Shown here in pieces: positions 2,893-12,890 of a stretch of DNA of 23,108 bases; within the stretch, counting starts at the first letter, position 1, and each line of letters begins with the position of its first letter. A model generated the notes under the pieces. It made no database searches. It saw nothing but the letters and a program-made list of their open reading frames with translations, and was not told the origin of the DNA. Source of the stretch: a virus; the IMG/VR virus record IMGVR_UViG_3300037502_001175, positions 1 to 23,108 of that record; one strand, written 5' to 3'. A program made the position numbers and the translations under genes.

Positions 2893-4311
2893 ATGAACCT
2901 GAAAGAGCAGATTGCGAAACTTCGCAAAAAGCTGGAAGTCATGCAGGAAAAGCGTGACGAAATCAACGACAAGGCGCTGGGCGAAACCCGGACTCTGACC
3001 GACGAAGAAGCCAAGCAGTACGATGATACTGTGGGCGAAATCAAAGGTCTGAAAGCCGAGCTGAAGCGTCTGGAAGACCTGCAAGCCGAGCGCGAAGCGG
3101 AAGAAGCCGAAGCAAAAGCCGCCGAAGCTGCGACCGCCAAGGCTATCGAAGGCGACACCGAAGAGAAGGCCGCCAAGTCCCGCGAAGGCAAGCAGCCGCG
3201 CGTCGAGGTTGCCAAGGAAGAGAAGGGTGTGGGCTTTGCCAAGTTCGCCCGCATCCTGGTGACCTCCAAGATGAATCACGTCAACCCGATTGACGTGGCG
3301 AAGGCGCAGTACCCGCACGATCAGCGCATCCAGAACGTGGCGAAAGCTGCCGTGGCGGCTGGAACCACCAGTAACGCGTCATGGGCTGGCAATCTGGTAG
3401 GCGACGAGTCTGCCGTGTTCGCGGACTTCGTGGAGTTCCTGCGTCCTCAGACCATTCTGGGCCGTTTCGGTTCTGGTGGCGTGCCAAGCCTGCGTACTGT
3501 GCCTTTCCGTGTACCCCTGATCGGCCAGACCTCTGGCGGTGACGGCTACTGGGTAGGCGAAGGCAAGGCCAAGCCGCTGACCAAGTTCGACTTCACCCGC
3601 ACCACCCTGGAGCCGTTGAAGGTTGCGAACATCGCCGTTCTGTCCGAAGAGGTGCTGATGTACAGCTCCCCGGCGGCGGACGTGCTGATCCGTGACCAAC
3701 TGGCGCAAGCTCTGGCGGCGCGGTTGGACGTGGACTTTATCGACCCGGCCAAGGCGGCGGTTTCTGGAGTCTCCCCGGCCTCCATCACCAACGGCCTGAC
3801 GCCGATCACGGCCAGCGGCACCGGCACAGCGGACGACGTGCGCGCCGACCTGCGTGGCCTGTATCAGAACTTCATCGCGGCGAATAACACCCCGTCCTCT
3901 GCGGTTCTGATCATGAACGGCACCACCGCGCTGGCGCTGTCCCTGATGGTGAACGCTCTGGGCCAGCCTGAGTTCCCGAGCATCACCATGGGCGGCGGCA
4001 CCCTGAACGGCGTACCTGTGATCGTCTCCGAGCACATCCCGACAGATTCCACCGGCTCCATCGTTGTGATGGCAAACGCCGGCGATATCTATCTGGGTGA
4101 CGAGGGTGGCGTCATGGTGGACATGAGCCGCGAGGCGTCTCTGGAGATGGACAACGCGCCAACTCACGACAGCGACACCCCGACCGGCTCCAGCTTGGTC
4201 AGCCTCTGGCAGACCAACAGCGTTGCCATGCGTGCGGAGCGGTTCATCAACTGGAAGCTTCGCCGCGCAACTGCGGTAGCCTACCTGACTGGCGTCAACT
4301 GGGGCGCGTAA
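2893..4311 (+). CDS. Major capsid protein, HK97 fold, with N-terminal scaffold (delta) domain
   Basis: Forms the icosahedral shell. It has 472 residues. About residues 1-110 are a highly charged, heptad-rich coiled coil, as in the delta domain that acts as built-in scaffold and is cut off by the protease. From about 115 onward the sequence fits the HK97 fold, including an N-arm-like stretch, the GDGYWVGEGKAKP region of the E-loop/spine area (around 215-230), and a C-terminal NSVAMRAERFINWKL segment typical of Phage_capsid proteins. Codon use is strongly biased (CTG for Leu, few rare codons), as expected for the most abundant product. No separate scaffold gene is present. The exact cleavage site cannot be read from sequence alone. 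Confidence 0.95.
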   Translation: MNLKEQIAKLRKKLEVMQEKRDEINDKALGETRTLTDEEAKQYDDTVGEIKGLKAELKRLEDLQAEREAEEAEAKAAEAATAKAIEGDTEEKAAKSREGKQPRVEVAKEEKGVGFAKFARILVTSKMNHVNPIDVAKAQYPHDQRIQNVAKAAVAAGTTSNASWAGNLVGDESAVFADFVEFLRPQTILGRFGSGGVPSLRTVPFRVPLIGQTSGGDGYWVGEGKAKPLTKFDFTRTTLEPLKVANIAVLSEEVLMYSSPAADVLIRDQLAQALAARLDVDFIDPAKAAVSGVSPASITNGLTPITASGTGTADDVRADLRGLYQNFIAANNTPSSAVLIMNGTTALALSLMVNALGQPEFPSITMGGGTLNGVPVIVSEHIPTDSTGSIVVMANAGDIYLGDEGGVMVDMSREASLEMDNAPTHDSDTPTGSSLVSLWQTNSVAMRAERFINWKLRRATAVAYLTGVNWGA

Positions 4312-4318
4312 GTCATAA

Positions 4319-4338
4319 GGGAGGGCTTCGGCCCTCCC
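4319..4338 (+). terminator. UUCG-loop hairpin after the capsid gene
   Basis: A perfect 8-base stem, GGGAGGGC (4319-4326) and GCCCTCCC (4331-4338), closes a TTCG tetraloop, which is among the most stable RNA hairpins. No T-run follows, only TGCCTTAATCCT. It is therefore more likely an attenuator or an mRNA 3'-end stabiliser that lets capsid mRNA accumulate over the downstream genes than a complete intrinsic terminator. Confidence 0.6.
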
Positions 4339-4361
4339 TGCCTTAATCCTCTGGAGGTTCT

Positions 4362-4568
4362 ATGGATCTCAAAGTAAAAGACCCGCGTGGTTTCCGGTTT
4401 GGCGGCAAGTTCTATGCGCAAGGCCAGGTCATCACCGGAGCGCGTGAGCGTGAAGGCAATCTTCTGGTGGCCTTGGGCAAGGCGGACGTGCATGTAGAGC
4501 CGGAACCCAGGAAGACCAAGAAGGCCAAGAAAGGCGAATACGACACCCGACACATGCAGGCGGAATAA
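4362..4568 (+). CDS. Small basic protein between capsid and portal genes, unknown function
   Basis: A 68-residue protein with a good Shine-Dalgarno (TGGAGG, about 8 bases before the ATG). The N-terminal 45 residues look like a small beta-rich domain with alternating hydrophobic residues, followed by a Lys-rich linker (about 48-57) and the terminal motif EYDTRHMQAE. I recall similar short C-terminal Tyr/Arg/Met motifs in small head-region proteins of other phages, but I cannot name a family. It sits between the capsid and portal genes, separated from the portal by only 3 bases, so a role in head assembly (decoration or portal incorporation) is plausible but unproven. Confidence 0.6.
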   Translation: MDLKVKDPRGFRFGGKFYAQGQVITGAREREGNLLVALGKADVHVEPEPRKTKKAKKGEYDTRHMQAE

Positions 4569-4571
4569 CAC

Positions 4572-5864
4572 ATGAAGCTCTTTGGGCTAGAGATCAAGCG
4601 CCGCACCAAGGCACTACAGGAGGCGGGCTCGTCTGGCTGGTGGCCGGTTGTGCGCGATCCTTACCCCGGAGCGTGGCAGCAAAACAAAGAACTGACCGGC
4701 GGCGAACAACTGGCGTTTTTTGCTGTGTTCTCCTGCATCACCCTGATTTCAAACGACGTGGGCAAGCTCAAGCCGCGCCTCATGGCCTATCAAGATGGCA
4801 TCAAAGTACCCGTTGACAACAGCCCGTATGCCCGCGTCCTGAAGAAGCCGAACCACTACCAGAACCATATCCAGTTCAAAGAAACGTGGATGATCTCGAA
4901 ACTGACGCGAGGCAATACTGTTGCGCTCAAGGTTCGGGACAATCGCGGCATGGTCACGGCGTTGTATATTCTTGACTACAGCCGCGTCAAGATTCTGGTG
5001 TCGGATTCTGGCGAAGTGTTCTACGAGCTGAAAAAAGACGCGATCAGCAAGCAACAGGAAGAAGTTGTAACTGTCCCGGCATCCGAGGTTATCCACGACC
5101 GCATCAACTGCCTGTTCCACCCGCTGATTGGTATCAGCCCGCTCTATGCGTGCAGTCTGTCCGCCGGCATGGGTCTGGAGATCCAGCAGAACAGCCGCAA
5201 GTTCTTCGCCAATGGCTCGCGCCCTGGCGGCGTACTGTCCGCCCCCGGCGCAATCTCAGACGCAACAGCGGCAAGGCTGAAACAGCAGTGGGACGCCAAC
5301 TACACCGGAAACAATGCCGGCAAGGTGGCGGTGGTAGGCGACGGGCTCAAGTACGAACCCATGGTCATGACCGCCCACGATGCCCAGATGGTTGAGCAGC
5401 TCAAGATGAGCGCCGAGACTGTGTGCTCTGTATTCCACGTCCCGAGTCACATGGCCATCGCGGGACAGGAGCCGAACTACAACAACATTCAGGCGCTGAA
5501 CCTGCAATACTACGCGCAGTGCCTACAGAGCCATATCGAGCAGTTTGAGGCGGTACTGGACGAGGGGCTTGGACTGCCTGACCGCATGACGGTGGAGCTT
5601 GATCTGGATAGCCTGTTACGGATGGACACCAAAACCCAAGCCGAGGTTGCCGCCGCTGAAATGGGCGCGGGCTACCTGGCACCCGACGAGGCCCGCCGCC
5701 GCCGTAACCTGCCACCTGTACCGGGCGGTGATACGCCGTACATGCAGCAGCAGAATTACAGCCTCGCTGCACTGAGCCGGCGCGATAACGCGGAGCCACC
5801 CGAGGACGATCTGGACGACGACGAAGCACTGGCCGCCATGGCAGAAGGAGCTGGCGATGAATAA
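4572..5864 (+). CDS. Portal protein (HK97/SPP1-like Phage_portal family)
   Basis: The dodecameric ring at the packaging vertex, which is the docking site for terminase and later for the head-tail connector. It has 430 residues, near the HK97 portal size. Recognisable are the N-terminal clip/wing region with FAVFSCITLISNDVGKLK (about 49-66), the segment HDRINCLFHPLIGISPL (about 175-191) and FANGSRPGGVLSAPG (about 213-227), which are characteristic of this family. The C-terminal tail is acidic (EDDLDDDE near 418). The gene lies after the capsid gene instead of before the protease as in HK97. It overlaps the next gene by 8 bases. Confidence 0.93.
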   Translation: MKLFGLEIKRRTKALQEAGSSGWWPVVRDPYPGAWQQNKELTGGEQLAFFAVFSCITLISNDVGKLKPRLMAYQDGIKVPVDNSPYARVLKKPNHYQNHIQFKETWMISKLTRGNTVALKVRDNRGMVTALYILDYSRVKILVSDSGEVFYELKKDAISKQQEEVVTVPASEVIHDRINCLFHPLIGISPLYACSLSAGMGLEIQQNSRKFFANGSRPGGVLSAPGAISDATAARLKQQWDANYTGNNAGKVAVVGDGLKYEPMVMTAHDAQMVEQLKMSAETVCSVFHVPSHMAIAGQEPNYNNIQALNLQYYAQCLQSHIEQFEAVLDEGLGLPDRMTVELDLDSLLRMDTKTQAEVAAAEMGAGYLAPDEARRRRNLPPVPGGDTPYMQQQNYSLAALSRRDNAEPPEDDLDDDEALAAMAEGAGDE

Positions 5865-10260: not shown

Positions 10261-10493
10261 CTATCAAAATTGTACTCCCAAAAAACGAAACCTGCCTGCC
10301 GTCTACGGGGCAAGGCACAAAAATCTACACCGACAGCGGCGAAGAAATCCAAGGCGTAGTTGCGTGTGACATCCGCATTCGTCCAAACGAGGCGATTACC
10401 GCAATACTGGAAGTTATGGTGTCGGAGGTCGAAAACCTTGAGCGGCTAAAGGGCGAGATTGTCATTGTTGACCCCAATGAGGACGAGGAATGA
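10257..10493 (+). CDS. Small protein of unknown function in the connector/tail region
   Basis: A 78-residue protein, acidic at its C-terminus (PNEDEE). The sequence alternates hydrophobic and polar residues and is likely all-beta apart from a helix around 57-66. It starts in the stop codon of the gp10-like gene (ATGA) and overlaps the next gene by 4 bases, so it is firmly part of the structural operon. Neither motifs nor family are recognised. A role in connector assembly or a small regulatory function is possible. Confidence 0.65.
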   Translation: MTIKIVLPKNETCLPSTGQGTKIYTDSGEEIQGVVACDIRIRPNEAITAILEVMVSEVENLERLKGEIVIVDPNEDEE

Positions 10494-10870
10494 ACATCCC
10501 CCTATTCCCCCTAGTCTCAACCAACACCGCCGTACAATCCGCCCTCGGCACCAGCCCGGTGCGCTTCTACCCGTTCGATTTCGCCCCGCAACCGGGCACA
10601 CCAGCCTATGCCGTTCCCTATGCCGTGTGGCAAGTCGTCACCGGCCTGCCGGAGAACTATCTTGATTGCCCGCCTGACATTGATTCGTACAGCCTTCAGG
10701 TGGACGTATACGGCGGTGGCGTGACCGAAGTACAGGCCGCCGTAAAAGCCCTCAGAGACGCCCTTGAGCCGCACGGCCACATCACCCGATGGGGCAATGA
10801 GGAACGCGAGGAAGAGACCGGGCTTTATCGGTATGGGTTTGATTTTGATTTTTGGGTTAAGAGGGAGTAA
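10490..10870 (+). CDS. Tail completion protein, DUF3168 (gp17-like)
   Basis: A 126-residue terminator-type tail protein that caps the tail tube and meets the head connector. The family pattern is visible: an N-terminal helix (PLVSTNTAVQSALG), a loop with a Pro-rich YAVPYAVWQVV strand, the central DSYSLQVDVYGG strand (about 64-75), a helix EVQAAVKALRDALEPHG (about 79-95) and a C-terminal YRYGFDFDFWVKRE strand. These are standard for DUF3168. It overlaps the gene before it by 4 bases. It is the last gene before the palindrome and terminator that open the Rha-Mom cassette. Confidence 0.9.
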   Translation: MNIPLFPLVSTNTAVQSALGTSPVRFYPFDFAPQPGTPAYAVPYAVWQVVTGLPENYLDCPPDIDSYSLQVDVYGGGVTEVQAAVKALRDALEPHGHITRWGNEEREEETGLYRYGFDFDFWVKRE

Positions 10871-10883
10871 TCTGGTTGTACGA

Positions 10884-10898
10884 ACGTCGAGATGACGT
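10884..10898 (+). repeat. Hairpin repeat, copy 1 (left flank of Rha-Mom cassette)
   Basis: ACGTC GAGAT GACGT is a 5-base stem with a 5-base loop. A near-identical copy (14 of 15 bases) lies at 12366-12380, and in both copies TCCGTT follows after four unrelated bases (10903-10908 and 12385-12390). The two copies bracket the Rha-Mom cassette, so they mark an insertion or duplication boundary. Confidence 0.7.
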
Positions 10899-10917
10899 GC
10901 GCTCCGTTGTTGTTAAG

Positions 10918-10940
10918 CCCCGCCTTGTTGCGGGGTTTTT
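10918..10940 (+). terminator. Rho-independent terminator after the DUF3168 gene
   Basis: CCCCGC (10918-10923) pairs with GCGGGG (10930-10935) around a CTTGTT loop, followed by TTTTT (10936-10940). It stops head/connector transcription before the Rha-Mom cassette. Confidence 0.85.
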
Positions 10941-10956
10941 ATTTGTGGGCTACCAT
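10928..10956 (+). promoter_or_regulatory. Weak candidate promoter for rha-mom
   Basis: TACCAT (10951-10956), in the context GCTACCATG shared with other late promoters of the window, lies 17 bases after TTGCGG (10928-10933), which overlaps the terminator stem. An alternative -10 is TGTAAT (10956-10961). A small hairpin GCCA-ATTG-TGGC (10963-10974) follows near the predicted start. A promoter is expected because a terminator lies immediately upstream, but the -35 is poor and an activator may be required. Confidence 0.35.
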
Positions 10957-11001
10957 GTAATTGCCAATTGTGGCGAAACTTAAACCTGAAGGGGTTGCAA
11001 C

Positions 11002-11664
11002 ATGACTGACATTGATATTGTTCGTATCAAAAACGAACTGCGCACCGATTCCCGCCTGTTAGCCGGATTTCTTGACCACCGGCACCGCACCATCCTTGAG
11101 AATGCCGACAAGTACACCAGCGAACTAAAGCAACTCGGCCCACTTCCGTTTCAAACGGAAAAGGGTACAGCCTTGAAGCAGGGCGGTTTTGCAAAGGCTA
11201 CCCGTTATGTTTTGCTGAATGAAGATCAGTGCTATTTCCTGCTAACGCTAATGCGCAACAACGAGCGAGTCGTGGCGGCAAAGCTGGCATTGGTAAAAGC
11301 GTTCAGCGAGGCCCGTGCACAGATTGCCCGCCGTGACCTTGCTCGGCTGGACGGCAAAGAAGTCCGCCGGATGGAGACGGACAGCATCAAGGCGCTTGTC
11401 GAGTACGCCAGCGCCAACGGCAGCAAATCACCAGAACGCTACTTCTCCAACATCACGAAAATGACAAACTCACTGCTCGGAATTGAATCCGGACAGCGCG
11501 ACAACTTGAGCGCCAGCGAACTGAAGCAAGTGGCGGTTGTCGAGAGCATTGTTGACCTTGCCATACGAGATGGCCTGAAGGCCGAAATGCCGTACAAGGA
11601 TATTTACCAGTTGGCGAAGGCGCGTGCGGCGCTGGTGGTCCCGGCAATTGGGAGGGAAGTGTGA
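11002..11664 (+). CDS. rha: Rha family phage regulatory protein
   Basis: A 220-residue protein. The N-terminal third has the Rha pattern: TDSRLLAGFLDHRHRTILEN (15-34), followed by LPFQTEKG and a TRYVLLNEDQCYFLLTLMRNN (68-87) strand-helix, then the helix VVAAKLALVKAFSEARAQIA (90-109). Rha proteins are phage DNA-binding regulators; in other phages they are known for interfering with infection of hosts lacking integration host factor. The second half is helical and does not match the common C-terminal domains I know. It has a Shine-Dalgarno (AAGGGG, about 10 bases before the ATG). Its stop overlaps the mom start (TGATG), so the two are coupled and Rha may regulate or serve the Mom function. Confidence 0.8.
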   Translation: MTDIDIVRIKNELRTDSRLLAGFLDHRHRTILENADKYTSELKQLGPLPFQTEKGTALKQGGFAKATRYVLLNEDQCYFLLTLMRNNERVVAAKLALVKAFSEARAQIARRDLARLDGKEVRRMETDSIKALVEYASANGSKSPERYFSNITKMTNSLLGIESGQRDNLSASELKQVAVVESIVDLAIRDGLKAEMPYKDIYQLAKARAALVVPAIGREV

Positions 11665-12281
11665 TGGAAGTTAGAGCAATAACTCGTCAAGACTGCGCGC
11701 CATTTATCCTCGATATCCATTACGCCAAGCGGTGGCCCTCCATTAGTTACGCTTTCGGTCTTTTCGATGAGTCGGAGCTGGTTGGAGTGGTAACTTACGG
11801 AAACCCAGCATCAAGGCATCTTCAGGTGGGCTGCTGCAAAGAAAGGCCAGACCTTGTAATAGAGCTTAACCGGCTCTGCCTGAAGTATAACCGAAAAAAC
11901 GAGGGGTCTTTTTTGGTATCAGGCAGCCTAAAGCTGCTACCAGCAAAAATCGTTGTTAGCTATGCAGACACCATGCACGGCCATAACGGCGGGGTTTACA
12001 GGGCGTCCAACTTTAATTATGCAGGATGGACCGACATGGAAAGAAAAACCGCCAGGCTTGATTATGTGCCTGATAGCGGAAGGCATAGTCGGGACGCATT
12101 CAGAAACGGCGAGGGCGCAAAATCAAAGACTGTAAGGCGCAAGCCAAAAGCAAAATATTGGACTGTTACGGGGGCTAGGACGGACAAAAAGCGCCTGGCC
12201 AGAATGATGACTTGGCCTATACTTGACTGGTCAAAACACCCCTGCCCCAGAGAGCACAAGCAACTCAAGATTAAGGGCTGA
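11664..12281 (+). CDS. mom: Mom-family DNA adenine modification protein (anti-restriction)
   Basis: A 205-residue protein related to phage Mu Mom, which converts adenines in phage DNA to a carbamoylmethyl-type derivative and so blocks many restriction enzymes. It has a GNAT-like fold. Landmarks shared with Mom-like proteins are HY (19-20) followed by RWPS, the strand ELVGVVTYGNPAS (38-50), ELNRLCL (67-73), GSFLVSGSLKLL (81-92) and VVSYADTMHGHNGGVYRASN (97-116) with Asp102 and Tyr112. The basic C-terminus (about 155-205) could bind DNA. I chose ATG 11664, 8 bases after GGAGGG; a GTG at 11661 is an alternative. The gene is more AT-rich than the tail genes and is bounded by a terminator: a moron. 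No com-like gene is seen. Confidence 0.8.
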   Translation: MEVRAITRQDCAPFILDIHYAKRWPSISYAFGLFDESELVGVVTYGNPASRHLQVGCCKERPDLVIELNRLCLKYNRKNEGSFLVSGSLKLLPAKIVVSYADTMHGHNGGVYRASNFNYAGWTDMERKTARLDYVPDSGRHSRDAFRNGEGAKSKTVRRKPKAKYWTVTGARTDKKRLARMMTWPILDWSKHPCPREHKQLKIKG

Positions 12282-12294
12282 AGAAATAGCTACC

Positions 12295-12320
12295 AAGCCC
12301 TCCCAGTGAGGGCTTTCTTT
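12295..12320 (+). terminator. Rho-independent terminator after mom
   Basis: AAGCCCTC (12295-12302) pairs with GAGGGCTT (12308-12315) around a CCAGT loop, followed by the T-rich TCTTTT. It closes the Rha-Mom cassette and isolates it from the tail genes. Confidence 0.85.
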
Positions 12321-12347
12321 TGCACCCCGCCCCGTATCGGTTATACT
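12319..12347 (+). promoter_or_regulatory. Candidate promoter of the tail operon
   Basis: TTTGCA (12319-12324) and TATACT (12342-12347) are spaced by 17 bases. It lies directly after the mom terminator and before a 58-base leader that carries the second copy of the hairpin repeat. Transcription would start near 12354 and cover the tail tube through the tip genes. Confidence 0.5.
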
Positions 12348-12359
12348 GTGATAGCATGC

Positions 12360-12384
12360 AATAACACGTCGTGATGACGTTATT
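12360..12384 (+). repeat. Hairpin repeat, copy 2, in the tail-tube leader
   Basis: The core ACGTC GTGAT GACGT (12366-12380) matches copy 1 at 10884-10898 in 14 of 15 bases. Flanking AATAA (12360-12364) and TTATT (12380-12384) extend the stem across a two-base bulge, using CGTC/GACG as inner stem. It sits at the 5' end of the predicted transcript, about 20 bases before the tail tube gene's start. It may act on RNA, or be the right scar of the insertion that brought in rha-mom. Confidence 0.65.
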
Positions 12385-12404: not shown

Positions 12405-12890
12405 ATGTCGGTTTTATCTCAGGGGACTCACGTATACCTGATCAACCCGCTTGCATCTGGCGGCCCTGCCGTTGTTCGCGTTGAATGCGCCACCACCTTC
12501 AGCCCCGGCGGCAACCCTGCCGACCAGATTGAAGATACCTGTCTCGAAGACTCCAGCCGAAGCTATCGCCCAGGCCTGCGCACTCCCGGCACTGCGACTA
12601 TGGGCATCAACGCAGACCCGAGCAACGAAAGCCACTTGCTGCTGCACGAGCTTTCTGAAACCGACCCCAGCCCGATTGTCCAATGGGCGGTTGGTTGGTC
12701 TGACGGTACGGACGCTCCTACTGTGGACAGCAATGGTGACTTTGAACTGCCGGACACCCGCACATGGTTTGTGTTTGAAGGCTACGTCAGCGACTTCCCG
12801 TTCGACTTTGCCCAGAACACCGTGGTCACTTCTGAAGTCTCCATTCAACGTTCCGGCGGCTCTAGCTGGATTCCGAAGGTGACCCCATGA
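12405..12890 (+). CDS. Major tail tube protein
   Basis: A 161-residue protein that polymerises as stacked hexameric rings to form the tail tube. The pattern is mainly beta: [24 protein letters not shown], then [23 protein letters not shown], which is the usual 'D..E.T.L.......PGL..PG' region of Phage_tail_3/TTP proteins, and [20 protein letters not shown] followed by the [12 protein letters not shown] strand that ends the fold. No Ig-like extension is present. A strong Shine-Dalgarno (CGGAGG) lies 8 bases before the ATG. It overlaps the chaperone gene by 4 bases (ATGA). Position just before the frameshifting chaperone gene is standard. Confidence 0.92.

Follow-up and report, generated by a model that had tools for sequence, protein, structure and literature searches.

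The window analysed here, the whole stretch of 23,108 bases, was a virus fragment from a tailed phage. It carried rha (11002 to 11664; 220 aa) and mom (11664 to 12281; 205 aa), which lay on the plus strand, as did the flanking genes, terminators, hairpins, and −10 box described below, between a tail terminator gene (10490 to 10870; PF11367, E 2.2e-11; phrog_78) and a tail tube gene (12405 to 12890; PF16460, E 2.6e-70). Both were exact open reading frames where the preliminary description had placed them. The TGA of rha and the ATG of mom shared one base (TGATG), and the 3′ end of rha contained GGGAGGGAA (11650 to 11658), a strong Shine-Dalgarno-like sequence preceding the mom ATG; this ATG at 11664 was the likelier start of mom, with GTG at 11661 as the alternative. 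With this one-base overlap and ribosome-binding sequence, translation of the two genes should be coupled, as had been proposed. One terminator stood on each side of the pair (10915 to 10938 and 12295 to 12315); the terminator scan by itself was weak, because it gave nine terminator-like sites in the window versus 4.7 expected in shuffles, and both of these terminators were retained in related phages.

Products of mom and rha

The profile search with the mom product gave PF25680 (E 1.7e-30; 106.7 bits versus a curated cut-off of 27.1) and phrog_1384 "Mom-like DNA modification protein" (E 2.8e-45). Its predicted structure (AlphaFold2; pLDDT 90.7, pTM 0.85) had as best PDB match 8bv8 (E 4.6e-9; TM 0.64 to 0.68), the crystal of the inactive Mu Mom mutant S124A, and the next fold matches were general GNAT acyltransferases. 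The preliminary description had named a structural prediction lacking the Mom/GNAT fold as a ground for refutation; the predicted structure has this fold. Profiles and predicted structure thus give strong support to mom encoding a true Mom-family protein with this fold, a putative DNA adenine acyl-modification enzyme. The aligned identity to Mu Mom was about 25%; residues H19, Y20, R23, R70, N79, S99, D102, and Y112 were invariant in 27 homologues, and S124 of Mu aligned to S82, a position occupied by S in 23 and T in 4 of these 27. The Mu and window proteins shared the GNAT/Mom fold, the profile match, and this serine, but the window protein had a shorter N-terminus, and its gene had other neighbours and another transcription unit with no Com gene. 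Mom proteins of Mycobacterium phages (HermioneGrange and relatives) and of the IMG/VR loci L163, L164, and L002 were 50 to 66% identical to that of the window over the full length, also with no Com found; unlike mom in the window, their genes had other neighbours and no adjoining rha. The G+C content of mom was 49.8% versus 57.6 and 59.5% in the flanks, which fits acquisition. PADLOC returned no match for either Rha or Mom. A modified adenine in virion DNA is plausible, and Mom probably protects the DNA of the phage against restriction by bacteria.

The upstream product belonged to the Rha family, as had been stated: PF09669 matched its N-terminal part (residues 15 to 105; E 9.5e-13; 49 bits versus a curated cut-off of 29.9), and phrog_2657 matched its whole length (E 3.6e-36), spanning residues 5 to 209, so that the C-terminal half was not peculiar to this Rha, which corrects the preliminary description. 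The AlphaFold2 model (pLDDT 88, pTM 0.58; moderate overall confidence) displayed an N-terminal strand-helix domain, predicted as winged-helix, and a C-terminal bundle of four helices (88 to 138, 146 to 159, 171 to 193, and 198 to 212). The sole suggestive fold match was DNA-binding DdrC (E 3.7e-3, TM 0.33), too weak to rely on, and a PDB sequence search with Rha gave nothing meaningful. The same C-terminal half was found in Rha proteins of phages without mom, and association therefore does not mark it as a Mom partner, the role suggested for it earlier. The window Rha shared with the Phage_pRha family (PF09669; phi80 and P22 Rha) the N-terminal domain and a gene position among or near late genes, but differed from phi80/P22 Rha in its phrog_2657-type C-terminal half, its own conserved leader, and its occurrence as a solitary insert. 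P22 rha lies within or near the late genes (PMC4936722), and the harmfulness of phi80/P22 Rha in IHF-deficient hosts is cited in the same paper (PMC4936722).

Probable insertion at a resident terminator

The sequence comparison was applied to 80 related loci collected via the tail tube gene, nearly all of which had about 60 bases with one terminator between the tail terminator and tail tube genes. The nearest three phages, L055, L056, and L057, had tail tube and tail terminator 86 to 91% and 91 to 93% identical, respectively, to those of the window; in blastn, flank DNA identity was 77 to 88%, and homology ended at 10941 to 10945 and restarted at 12271 to 12310, delimiting an inserted rha–mom cassette (10946 to 12285, with an uncertainty of up to about 25 nt at the borders). 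The three displayed different contents at the insertion spot: (i) no rha–mom in L055, whose single terminator corresponded to the left stem of the first terminator of the window plus the right tail of the second; (ii) small ORFs in L056; and (iii) a DUF3440/PAPS-reductase gene plus a ParB-like gene in L057. The inserts of L056 and L057 carried a consensus-like promoter TTGCAC-17-TATAAT. From this comparison, the terminator at 10915 to 10938, common to L055 and L057, represented the insertion site (left border), and that at 12295 to 12315, which also ended the L056 and L057 cargos, represented the far end of the insert (right border). The preliminary description was right about terminators on both sides; the insulation that it read from them is better explained by insertion at a resident terminator.

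Morons of lambdoid/HK97-like phages are accessory genes located between structural genes, with a terminator and a presumed promoter, and missing in sister phages. The cassette resembled them as an accessory insert in the structural region, absent at the same place from close relatives (empty in L055, other cargo in L056 and L057), with its own terminator (12295 to 12315); as to a promoter of its own, the leader was conserved but the presumed −10 box was degenerate (TACCAT) in the window copy. Unlike such morons, the cassette was composed of two coupled genes and led by a regulator mobile among unrelated phages. Taken jointly with mom being the cargo of an rha unit (see below), the comparisons make it quite likely that the pair is an accessory insert of the moron type, placed at the terminator that the phage already had between its tail terminator and tail tube genes.

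Several further elements were observed around the insertion spot. It was flanked by ACGTC-GNGA-TGACGT hairpins at 10884 to 10898 (ACGTC-GAGA-TGACGT) and 12366 to 12380, which were the only two exact copies of ACGTCGNGATGACGT in the window; this 15-base repeat was rejected as an insertion footprint, because the empty site of L055 had both copies as well. Similar GNGA-loop hairpins were found in tail tube leaders of the distant relatives L068, L075, and L077. A promoter-like TTTGCA-17-TATACT (12319 to 12347), just 3′ of the second terminator and conserved in L055 to L057, may drive the tail tube gene separately. The L057 cargo (L057:2059-3758) encoded a 398-aa DUF3440/PAPS-reductase (phrog_2302), with weak matches to DndC/BrxP, together with a ParB-like protein. 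The two resemble an IbrA/IbrB pair, and cargo for DNA modification or counter-defence may be favoured at this spot.

A mobile rha unit and its proposed cargo slot

Relatives of this Rha, 51 to 76% identical over the full length, were encoded by Acinetobacter phages and many uncultivated phages at differing late-gene sites. Solitary rha inserts (Acinetobacter phages Abp95 and RM_A2; IMG/VR L022 to L027 and L143 to L150) shared this level of Rha identity, the leader design, and the late-gene insertion with the window, but they had no mom, mostly a consensus-like −10 box, and usually rha alone. In Plesiomonas phiP4-7 and Vibrio 242E40-1, distant rha relatives were opposite in strand to the structural genes. 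L036 and L037, both Acinetobacter phages, were 87% identical at 3953 to 4644 only, a stretch that ran from the −10 box to slightly beyond rha; the sequence adjoining it showed no similarity, and L024 and L026 displayed the same pattern of isolated rha-unit identity (90%). In L026, rha was followed directly by a terminator and then the next gene, while in L024 a 0.9-kb stretch separated rha from this common terminator and contained two ORFs of unknown function. The window mom occupied the rha-to-terminator place corresponding to these extra ORFs, so that the locus is better described as an rha unit plus cargo than as a dedicated Rha–Mom system. Because mom-less rha genes with a shared start occurred at unrelated sites and L024 carried its own cargo, rha appears to be a self-promoted, mobile leader gene with mom as its cargo. 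Two other rha arrangements were observed: in L028:3320-4528, an Rha lacking the N-terminal part was located directly behind an ORF that by eye resembled a GIY-YIG endonuclease, an arrangement suggestive of replacement or invasion of rha by the endonuclease gene, and one Methyloprofundus MAG contig (L251 and L253, in the genome of L135) carried a pair of Rha-type genes on one strand, with 5.9 kb between them.

The leader began with a TATAAT-like box, often as an extended −10, in all close relatives except L144, followed after 5 to 9 bases by GCC-N6-GGC, mostly GCCA-N4-TGGC or GCCG-ATAA-CGGC (general form GCCR-N4-YGGC). The window counterparts were the presumed −10 box TACCAT (10951 to 10956; placed by alignment to TATAAT of other rha leaders, with 4 of 6 matches) and the palindrome or hairpin GCCA-ATTG-TGGC (10963 to 10974), an element kept 5′ of rha in 15 aligned leaders; a second hairpin (10983 to 10996) was predicted beside or over the rha Shine-Dalgarno sequence in the window and in most relatives. 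Across the 15 leaders, 93.3% of palindrome cells were paired, versus 20 to 62% with the partner slid. Double-sided variation was found at one of the four palindrome pairs (A-T to G-C jointly in three sequences); since no other pair varied on both sides, the case for an RNA helix rather than a DNA operator is limited, and such a double change is expected from DNA operator and RNA hairpin alike. The summed folding energy of 13 leaders was −94, below all 300 shuffle sums (minimum −84.4). In the window, no −35 box was recognisable, and the promoter scan did not call the rha–mom −10 box; TACCAT makes the strength of this promoter doubtful, and with the missing promoter call it means that the rha–mom unit may depend on read-through. 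An Rfam search gave nothing. The GCC..GGC pattern was rejected as a general leader element, since its scan gave rha leaders plus chance matches; one match, in L241, preceded a different gene.

Rha–Mom pairing and the place of Com

Mom needs careful dosing, for which Mu uses Com, Dam, and C. In the Mu mom message, an inhibitory structure holds until Com binds a nearby hairpin (PMC6483171). The leader hairpins of the window preceded rha, not mom, and any translational control would thus act one gene earlier than in Mu. The window further differed from the com–mom operon in that the gene upstream of mom was rha, not com, and that the promoter region 10850 to 11010 contained no GATC (Dam-methylation site). 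At E 0.01, no Com homologue was found in the window, nor in about 100 mom-positive loci except Mu itself, so that absence of Com is the rule and the notion of Rha acting instead of Com loses its footing. In other phages, too, mom followed unrelated genes, being coupled to them or at a very short distance; as judged from these loci, mom is commonly coupled to whichever gene precedes it, with Com as the exception.

The preliminary description had proposed a survey of rha–mom adjacency as a check. In 53 rha-positive and 101 mom-positive loci, rha and mom were side by side in the window only, so that their adjacency was rejected as a conserved system, the pairing having no evolutionary support in the absence of a second pair. 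As far as the records were complete, a whole-record check found no mom in viral rha-bearing records; conversely, mom was without rha in 37 of 38 mom-bearing or flanking-relative records, the exception, one of 35 mom-bearing records, having an N-terminal Rha match in another part of the record. A 369-genome sample of one class contained one Mom genome, two Rha genomes, and no rha–mom pair. In the literature collection searched, no paper was found on rha–mom or on 8bv8. Other neighbourhoods were observed as well: L136:5154-6602, from a bacterial MAG, carried a ParB-like gene plus a Mom-like gene split over two frames between rha and terminase genes, the split Mom-like ORF being located 1.2 kb from rha, beyond the ParB-like gene; and the mom genes at L215:3989 and L173:3998 were located directly behind DNA methyltransferase-like ORFs, a gene order suggesting joint modification modules.

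Three other readings of the locus were weighed. A Rha that replaces Com as dedicated late timer of Mom, with the C-terminal half as Mom partner, would agree with the adjacency and one-base overlap of the two genes and with their position among late genes on the same strand, but it is highly improbable: in the rha-bearing virus records searched, the same Rha, C-terminal half included, was found with no mom, nearly all mom records were without rha, Com was not near mom in other phages, and rha cassettes can oppose late genes (phiP4-7 and 242E40-1). The late timing proposed in the preliminary description is not supported, since the rha cassette has its own −10 box and leader conserved in relatives and some cassettes oppose structural genes. 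It is also improbable that the mom product, though of GNAT fold, acts on some other substrate or is inactive, and confers no DNA modification: the low identity to Mu Mom leaves room for this, but the Mu Mom crystal was by far the top fold match, and the eight invariant residues and the S or T at position 82 were kept throughout the homologues.

Expression of the cassette only by read-through from the late operon, with mom late by its landing place and the rha leader decayed, is unlikely, if less so than a changed substrate. The degenerate −10 box, the unrecognisable −35, and the shared direction with the tail genes agree with it; the terminator directly upstream (10915 to 10938), the leader hairpins predicted to be intact, and the consensus-like promoter in the sister inserts of L056 and L057 argue against it.

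The reading preferred here, and probably the right one on these comparisons, is a moron-type insert made up of a mobile rha unit with mom as its coupled cargo. The comparisons show the cassette and its borders, the mobility of the rha unit, the place of the cargo, the Mom fold, and the conserved residues, whereas use of the promoter, autoregulation, and the modification with its benefit are inferred. The insert would have entered the late region between the tail terminator and tail tube genes, where a terminator was resident, bringing an rha unit composed of −10 box, 5′ palindrome or hairpin, ribosome-site hairpin, rha, and terminator. Transcription most likely begins at the rha leader by host RNA polymerase; Rha would be made first and Mom next, by coupling through TGATG and the strong Shine-Dalgarno-like sequence of mom. 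Rha, with its predicted winged-helix and helical bundle, most likely controls its own leader and hence the dose of Mom, which would modify adenines in the DNA of the phage, and perhaps of the host, and thereby block restriction.

What is new is a combination of known parts: a Mom-family gene within an insert of the moron type, with a mobile rha unit at its head. The mom gene here rides a regulator cassette that is mobile in its own right and has a conserved leader, at a position where the sister phages exchange other cargo, including a PAPS-reductase/ParB pair. The conserved leader–rha–slot–terminator cassette can be searched for in other phages and is worth following, and the locus offers a small test system for the acquisition and dosing of accessory DNA modification. 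More tentatively, and at present as a possibility rather than an expectation, phrog_2657-type Rha may lead a portable cassette with self-control via the 5′ palindrome and the Shine-Dalgarno hairpin and with a free cargo slot, by which dose-controlled DNA modification moves between unrelated phages. If this is true, a potentially harmful DNA modification would spread between unrelated phages together with its own dose control.
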